A program made the translations under genes and the position numbers. From Streptomyces sp. NBC_01116 (GTDB taxonomy: Bacteria; Actinomycetota; Actinomycetes; Streptomycetales; Streptomycetaceae): a DNA stretch of 64,000 nucleotides. The notes beneath the pieces are model-generated. The model did no database searches. It was not told the origin of the DNA and saw nothing but the letters and a program-made list of their open reading frames with translations. Below, one piece after another: positions 4,822 through 5,176 of this stretch (its first letter is position 1; each line of letters starts with the position of its first letter). The stretch is from positions 4,945,501 to 5,009,500 of the forward strand of contig NZ_CP108644.1 in assembly GCF_041435495.1 (NCBI RefSeq), written 5' to 3'.

Positions 4822-5176
4822 TCCGCTGATCCGCACTCCGTGAGGGCCGCGGAGGCTGGGGGCCTGTGGACCTGCGGGCCTGCGGGACTCGGCGAGGGTC
4901 TGCGGGACTCGGTGAGGGCCTGCGGGGGCCGGAAAACGCAGAAACCCGCAGGCTCGGGTTCCTCCGTGCACAGAGGAGCCGGCCGGACTTACCGGCGAGC
5001 CTGCGGGTCGGTGACTGCTGGGAATTGGCCGGCGTCCGGCCTGCACTGCAGAAAGAGTGCGACGACGGGCGTCAGCCCGCAGTCACCTCACGAGTCCGAG
5101 AAGAAATCACTTCCGGAACACCTCCTTTCCTGTGTGCCCACAGCCTAGAAGCGCCCCGGATCGCGGTTCAACCGAT
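4822..5176. other. Gene-free convergent interval with direct repeats and long stem-loops
   Basis: No convincing gene is present between the stops of pdxH and the phytase gene. From about 4880 to 4925 the sequence holds two copies of a 19-bp direct repeat beginning CTGCGGGACTCGG, plus a partial third. From 4944 to 5087 there are two adjacent multi-arm inverted-repeat structures, described as a separate feature. The last 60 bp before 5177 are comparatively AT-rich and hold nothing recognisable. Confidence 0.6.
4944..5087 (-). ncRNA. Two adjacent branched stem-loop structures (3'UTR/terminator or structured RNA)
   Basis: Structure one: perfect 13-bp outer stem 4944-4956/4996-5008, closing two hairpins, 4957-4964/4973-4980 (8 bp with one G-U) and CCGG 4983-4986/4992-4995. 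Structure two: perfect 9-bp outer stem 5010-5018/5079-5087, closing three hairpins: GGCCGG 5027-5032/5036-5041, GCACT 5043-5047/5056-5060 and CGGGC 5066-5070/5075-5079. Read on the minus strand, the block follows the phytase stop and ends with the T-rich stretch TTTCTGCGTTTT, so it could be that gene's terminator. The branching is far more elaborate than a normal terminator. I recognise no known RNA family. Confidence 0.45.

Follow-up and report, generated by a model that had tools for sequence, protein, structure and literature searches.

The dense RNA structure between pdxH and the phytase gene of Streptomyces sp. NBC_01116 raises the question of what kind of element it is, whether it belongs to the mRNA of a neighboring gene, and what its fold might be for. 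The initial annotation placed a highly branched block at positions 4944-5087 of the window (the whole 64,000-nucleotide stretch of DNA analyzed here) and considered a structured 3' untranslated region, a processed small RNA, or an unknown element. The last of these gave way to an Rfam scan of the whole window, in which positions 5135-4936 of the minus strand match family RF02471 (Ms_IGR-5) with 101.5 bits against a gathering cut-off of 45; the cmscan alignment spans the full model, from position 1 to 184. Its score makes membership in RF02471 certain, and the element itself is therefore already known. The window holds two gathering-level Rfam matches, this one and a tRNA. We place the whole sRNA gene at 4930-5136 on the minus strand, with a 3' end that would lie just past the terminator stem, and it is nearly certain from the sequence that the block is the folded body, namely the 3' three quarters, of an autonomous RF02471 RNA of about 200 nt. 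The initial bounds were exact for the two closing stems but left out the 5' quarter (approximately 5088-5136), which carries a leader complementary to 16S rRNA and the first two thirds of a short open reading frame (ORF).

RF02471 occurs once in the genome that contains the window and is matched in 100 of 101 genus genomes, so the block is not the strain-specific repeat that had been named as a reason to abandon it. Within the class, 162 of 246 genomes have a match and 84 have none; among 246 genomes drawn from the phylum, 48 have one, 31 of them outside the class, and the 14 control genomes have none. Three genomes carry two matches, namely, G068 (the second weak, at 27.8 bits), G077 (one full and one below the cut-off), and G181 (both full), and these possibly represent paralogues, assembly effects, or contamination. 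Transcripts of family members appear in earlier reports, as far as the parts consulted go: RNA-seq detection of the S. lividans relative SLIV_16488 is given as "yes" (PMC8079986), the S. avermitilis relative is one of two Rfam-matching units among 139 sRNA units (PMC8780764), and the M. smegmatis sRNA ncMSMEG15794c overlaps IGR-5 (PMC10454040). The portions of open-licence papers examined, a scope outside which the original M. smegmatis study falls, state no function for RF02471, and a text search of the literature found no link between the mycobacterial copy and any named M. tuberculosis sRNA. Identity with scr2736 (Streptomyces RNA 2736, RF02831) was rejected because that RNA belongs to a different Rfam family with no gathering-level match in the window; according to the part of the S. 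lividans report consulted, RF02831 and RF02471 occupy separate places in that organism (PMC8079986). A mobile or phage element was also rejected, as the RNA pattern had no matches in viral contigs.

The comparison drew on a total of 210 loci. Loci L001 to L060 are the best 60 matches, 30 each from the genus genomes (of 100) and the class genomes (of 162), and they lean to high scores because the best-scoring matches were chosen. Loci L061 to L180 come from a pattern scan with at least 120 matches, and the outside-class set consists of all 31 phylum loci found outside the class. The 179 anchored loci exclude L015, which did not fit the anchor pattern and whose ORF is intact by eye. Left out of the alignment were L066, L146, L151, and L177, whose records end too early, and L067, L094, L113, L124, L162, L169, and L172, whose arms were not placed or were odd. 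From the 168 loci that remained, 92 representatives with less than 80% identity were aligned.

The fold itself stood up well. Its two closing stems, of 13 bp (4944-4956 with 4996-5008) and 9 bp (5010-5018 with 5079-5087), are exact, and the inner hairpins are as first described, two in the 13-bp domain and three in the 9-bp domain. The minimum free energy of 4944-5087 is -91.4 kcal/mol on the plus strand, versus -63.6 for dinucleotide shuffles (z -7.3), and -89.5 kcal/mol on the minus strand, versus -61.6 (z -6.2), and on neither strand did any of 200 shuffles reach so low a value; the entire 201-nt minus-strand RNA has a fold z of -5.1. Covariation among the 92 representatives supports a structured small RNA on the minus strand, with compensatory changes in each stem: the 9-bp stem is paired in 98.8% of cells and has two-sided changes in four pairs, while ten pairs of the 13-bp stem are 97.0% paired and two-sided changes are found in nine pairs of this terminator stem. 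The structure as a whole is 92.3% paired, a value that falls to 46.6% or less when partners are slid by one to three columns. On the minus strand, the 5' arm of the terminator domain (4996-5008) and its 3' arm (4944-4956) are followed by the T-rich stretch TTTCTGCGTTTTCC at 4931-4944.

The alignment identifies the 9-bp stem, termed P2 here, as a covarying helix built from ORF codons 8 to 11. Its 5' arm, GGTGACTGC (5079-5087), is those codons, its 3' arm is GCAGTCACC (5010-5018), and a conserved AAUUCCC (5020-5026) stands immediately ahead of the 3' arm. Two-sided changes in P2 include GGTGGCTAC/GTAGCCACC, GGTGACCAT/ATGGTCACC, and GGTGGTTGT/ACAACCACC. P3, formed by codon 12, the stop codon, and the next base, is a weaker helix and is 76.9% paired in the representatives. 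Rfam labels the family "Gene; sRNA" with no ORF, and its consensus structure, as seen in the cmscan alignment, contains neither P2 nor the pseudoknot considered below. In contrast to P2, the first helix of the Rfam model shows almost no covariation: 92.6% of its cells are pairable, a single cell of 552 is two-sided, 79 of 500 shuffles score as high, and its strands overlap the Shine-Dalgarno sequence and P2. Another candidate helix, P1 (5' GUCC with ORF GGAC), was rejected, as 97.8% of cells pair with no two-sided change, for which reason it may simply reflect the 16S match.

A pseudoknot between GGAC in the ORF and GUCC in the terminator loop is probable. In the window, its putative strands are CGGACT at codons 5 and 6 (5093-5098) and AGUCCG in the apical loop (4984-4989), both on the minus strand. 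The loop GUCC is retained in 172 of 175 loci despite a variable stem, and the ORF GGAC is retained in 174 of 175. A fifth pair, which joins the base that follows GGAC to the one that precedes GUCC, is Watson-Crick in 53 of the 92 representatives, versus 30.3 +/- 7.1 in independent-column tree simulations (p 0.002), or in 60, versus 39.3 +/- 8.2 expected, when G-U is included (p 0.009), and it is unpaired in 32 of 92. A run-length test on the same representatives was negative (5.34 versus 5.26 +/- 0.10, with 120 of 500 shuffles as high). Outside the class, loops could be placed in 26 of 31 loci, and 25 of the 26 give at least 5 bp with the ORF at loop positions that were preset rather than blind; the matched changes there include AGGACC/GGUCCU, GGGACC/GGUCCC, CGGACC/GGUCCG, and UCGACC/GGUCGA. 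Together, P2 and the pseudoknot would correct the consensus structure that is used to find and interpret RF02471.

On the sequence evidence, the RNA is an autonomous gene with a promoter-like sequence of its own. A -35-like hexamer, TTGAAC (5166-5171, minus strand), fits a fixed-distance promoter pattern with a -10-like TAGGCT (5142-5147) of the TAnnnT type 18 nt away, which would put the transcription start at about 5134-5137. Among the 92 representatives, 81 have TTGnnn-N16..19-TAnnnT upstream at a constant distance, versus 0.8 of 92 in shuffled upstream sequence, and all have TAnnnT within 22 nt upstream of the RNA. In the window, this site falls between the phytase stop codon and the RNA. 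The idea of a 3' untranslated region or a processed product of the phytase mRNA is not supported, given this promoter-like site and the fact that phytase is not the upstream neighbor in most loci.

Short ORF, helices, then terminator is also the classic arrangement of a transcription attenuation leader that governs a downstream gene. In attenuator leader peptides of the trp or erm type, a short ORF overlaps helices that exclude one another or respond to ribosomes, with a terminator after them, and the RNA studied here shares this layout. According to a heuristic gene caller, 51 of 175 loci have a same-strand gene next downstream, which would suit such a leader, but the next gene is convergent in 111 and not called in 13. 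The regulated same-strand gene that an attenuator has directly downstream is absent from the window, where the next gene is the convergent pdxH. A convergent pdxH likewise stands no more than 1.2 kb away in 26 of the 29 genus loci; the class set has it so placed in 6 of 30 loci and the named set in 14 of 120. Unlike attenuator leaders, the RNA has no conserved downstream gene, and its transcript appears self-contained; Pfam assignments for 20 neighbors in 14 other loci gave varied families, and downstream neighbors elsewhere include an M24 peptidase, GNAT, PhoU, THAP4 heme-binding, and beta-lactamase-like genes. We therefore consider an attenuation leader extremely unlikely. Elsewhere, 3 of the 30 class-set loci have pdxH upstream of the RNA and on its strand, while in 21 of these 30 and in 99 of the 120 named loci no pdxH was found nearby, in records of 1.7 to 8 kb that leave distant genes out of view. 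Action in cis on pdxH was rejected because the citA-pdxH block is inverted in some loci and pdxH was not found near the RNA in many. The inverted block is seen in the Streptomyces relatives L071, L142, L145, and L154, with pdxH on the same strand, citA between, and the citA end about 230 nt from the RNA; in L013, citA alone is present, also inverted.

The 5' quarter begins with a leader (5115-5130, minus strand) that can pair with the 3' tail of 16S rRNA (GGAUCACCUCCUUUCU) at 15 of 16 positions, the exception being one U-U, and that includes a GGAGG Shine-Dalgarno sequence. It is the best site and the sole one reaching at least 15 on both strands of the 64-kb window; the next best are two sites at 14, of which one has 10 Watson-Crick pairs and the other 8, versus 14 in the leader. 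The consensus of the leader, AGAAAGGAGGUG(A/G)UCC, complements the final 16 bases of 16S rRNA, a tail found five times with its upstream context in the window genome. With G-U pairs counted, 154 of the 179 loci can pair at 16 of 16 positions, 23 at 15, and 2 at 14. Because the pattern scan fixed 11 leader positions for 120 loci, fairer sets are the Rfam-found loci (16 in 48 of 59, 15 in 10, and 14 in 1) and the outside-class loci (16 in 31 of 31). Among the representatives, 220 bases differ from the perfect complement and 207 of them still pair, a count that somewhat overstates the case since the changes involved, A to G and C to U, are those that mutation produces most often anyway, and leader G opposite 16S C is invariant in all 92. 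An extended Shine-Dalgarno helix has been seen by cryo-EM in S. aureus, where, in the portion of that study consulted, pairing runs from the Shine-Dalgarno sequence toward the start codon with longer spacing, as it would here, with 10 to 12 nt; in S. aureus this is a property of many mRNAs, whereas here up to 16 nt are involved in one autonomous small RNA (PMC13009471). The Shine-Dalgarno motif GAGGUG recurs inside the ORF (GAG GUG, codons 8 to 10), the two copies lying at window positions 5118-5124 and 5082-5088, and the 3' arm of P2 (CACC) could possibly pair with either copy as a feedback switch.

The ORF that follows (5072-5110, minus strand) has 12 codons and a stop, GTG ATT TCT TCT CGG ACT CGT GAG GTG ACT GCG GGC TGA (MISSRTREVTAG), and its frame is kept in 176 of 179 loci. 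Codon 1 in the anchored loci is TTG in 77, ATG in 76, GTG in 23, and another triplet in 3; codon 13 is TAG in 151, TGA in 16, and TAA in 12, a stop in every one of the 179, and internal stops are absent. The start codon lies 10 to 12 nt past GGAGG in 176 of 179 loci, and the exceptions at codon 1 are L040 (ATT), L167 (ATG, in frame but a codon short), and L124 (ATG two codons earlier). On the tree of the 92 representatives, the first base of the start codon changed at least 15 times, always between A, T, and G with C never arising; the stop codon changed at least 11 times, in each case to another stop. Start-like triplets concentrate at a single offset in 91 of 92 representatives, and stops do likewise in 92 of 92. 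Such a pattern is the signature of selection for translation, and the ORF itself is very likely real, its start, frame, and stop surviving many independent codon changes. Outside the class, 30 of 31 loci keep a stop at the corresponding position, L203 having neither a stop nor the frame. An in-frame near-cognate start at 9- to 14-nt spacing is present in 22 of 31, of which 14 are ATG, GTG, or TTG, and in these 22 of 22 loci the ORF has 13 or 14 codons and is free of internal stops. By eye, seven of the nine others carry CTG, ATC, or ATT at 8 nt; the remaining two are L191, which is uncertain, and L203, the locus with the lost frame. Many outside-class loci have an extra base between GGAC and GAG with the start-to-stop frame intact, which is hard to explain without translation. 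Loci L197, L200, L201, L205, and L210 and the mycobacterial L040 have AUC or AUU at the start position, beside the longest possible Shine-Dalgarno sequence. IF3 discriminates against starts of this type, and such discrimination might be part of the regulation.

That start, frame, and stop persist through independent codon changes, and through the one-base spacing change outside the class, makes it very unlikely that RF02471 is a noncoding, base-pairing sRNA with an incidental ORF, although the family is described and annotated as an sRNA in the parts of the literature seen (PMC10454040 and PMC8079986). Ribosome reads on the family, which agree with the ribosome-coupled reading proposed below, have been reported in M. 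abscessus and M. smegmatis, and the authors of that work caution, in the part consulted, that noncoding RNAs give footprints too (PMC4974804), a point that would fit a noncoding RNA as well. A literature text search with the ORF peptide strings returned no relevant paper.

If the ORF is translated, its product might be what matters, in which case RF02471 would be the mRNA of a tiny functional peptide of about 12 amino acids whose structure just stabilizes the transcript and ends transcription. The conserved ORF and strong Shine-Dalgarno sequence fit this alternative, as does the peptide itself in part: three residues never vary among the 92 representatives, T at codon 6, E at codon 8, and V at codon 9, and serine at codon 3 occurs in 45 of 91, versus 23.9 +/- 3.6 in column shuffles that ignore kinship (0 of 1,000 as high), and is encoded by both TCN and AGY. 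Some selection on the peptide is possible given this serine excess. Against it, the invariant T, E, and V fall on nucleotides that double as pseudoknot and P2 strands, P2 covaries at the nucleotide level within the ORF, and several other codons vary without keeping residue type (R/W/G at codon 5, R/C/S at codon 7, and R/S/G/A/H/V at codon 12, with variation at codon 11 as well and codons 2 to 4 nearly free). We consider a peptide mRNA fairly unlikely and infer that being translated counts for more than the peptide product.

The reading that we favor, to which we give an even chance, is that the translated RF02471 RNA works as a ribosome-coupled RNA switch or trap, in which ribosomes would melt and switch the fold. 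The 30S subunit would dock through the 15- to 16-nt duplex between the leader and the 16S 3' tail and initiate on the ORF of 12 codons, or of 12 to 14 where it could be measured outside the class, whose start codon is often weak for a subunit caught by the leader (TTG in 77 of 179). An initiating 30S subunit covers roughly codons 1 to 5. Bound in this way, it would mask GGAC, with P2 just ahead; translation of the twelve codons would open P2 and P3, and release would allow refolding. Because codons 5 and 6, codons 8 to 11, and codon 12 with the stop are strands of the fold, an initiating and elongating ribosome would have to melt it, an idle RNA would fold again, and the state of the RNA would differ between ribosomes that are initiating, waiting, or absent. 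Candidate outputs are the stability of the RNA, an exposed 3' strand containing CACC, or the held 30S subunit itself. More tentatively, and we regard this as possible at best, the RNA would be a phylum-wide device that holds the whole 16S tail and has an ORF of 12 to 14 codons whose peptide means little and whose sole role is to have a committed ribosome melt the fold, thereby sensing or storing initiating 30S subunits.

The nearest rival of such a switch or trap is an RNA that caps the 16S tail of idle or immature 30S subunits, in hibernation, nuclease protection, or maturation, with the ORF serving for release. Complementarity to the full 16-nt tail, well beyond the anti-Shine-Dalgarno core, in all outside-class loci and in 48 of 59 Rfam-found loci would suit a cap, as would the frequency of weak TTG starts. 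However, an extended Shine-Dalgarno helix also serves ordinary start selection in S. aureus, according to the part of that report consulted (PMC13009471); we consider a cap, and with it binding to idle subunits, unlikely.

RF02471 also resembles the dual-function (translated) sRNAs, which include SgrS/SgrT and RNAIII. What defines them, a conserved translatable ORF in a small autonomous RNA, is found here at the level of sequence, and the dual-function sRNA Pos19 of Rhodobacter, as far as its description was consulted, is likewise a small autonomous RNA with a short ORF. In contrast to these sRNAs, RF02471 has a weakly conserved peptide and an ORF whose codons double as strands of the fold. 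As far as we found, the family is known, and what is new is its reading here as a translated sRNA, with the ORF, the whole-tail 16S match, P2, and the pseudoknot; the portions of open-licence literature searched, which leave the original M. smegmatis study outside their scope, yielded no paper on these four features. The RNA, which is annotated as noncoding, is conserved throughout Actinomycetota, with Streptomyces and mycobacteria among its carriers. Should the ORF and 16S pairing hold true, ribosome availability would be tied to an RNA fold in a phylum with few understood sRNAs, and if the RNA were indeed a sensor or reservoir of initiating 30S subunits, it would represent a regulatory RNA class without earlier description that we found.

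Two minor observations concern the edges of this distribution and of the gene. A contig from a record titled as a Spirochaetia MAG (L124) carries a divergent, low-GC copy at 1232-1276 of the minus strand, with the Shine-Dalgarno sequence AAAAGGAGGUGAUCC, a 14-codon ORF whose ATG is two codons further upstream, a stem resembling P2, and a loop with GGUC. Provided that this contig was binned correctly, the RNA extends outside Actinomycetota. In the window, positions 4866-4930, between the pdxH stop codon and the 3' end of the sRNA, contain imperfect short direct repeats resembling CTGCGGGACTCGGNGAGGG.
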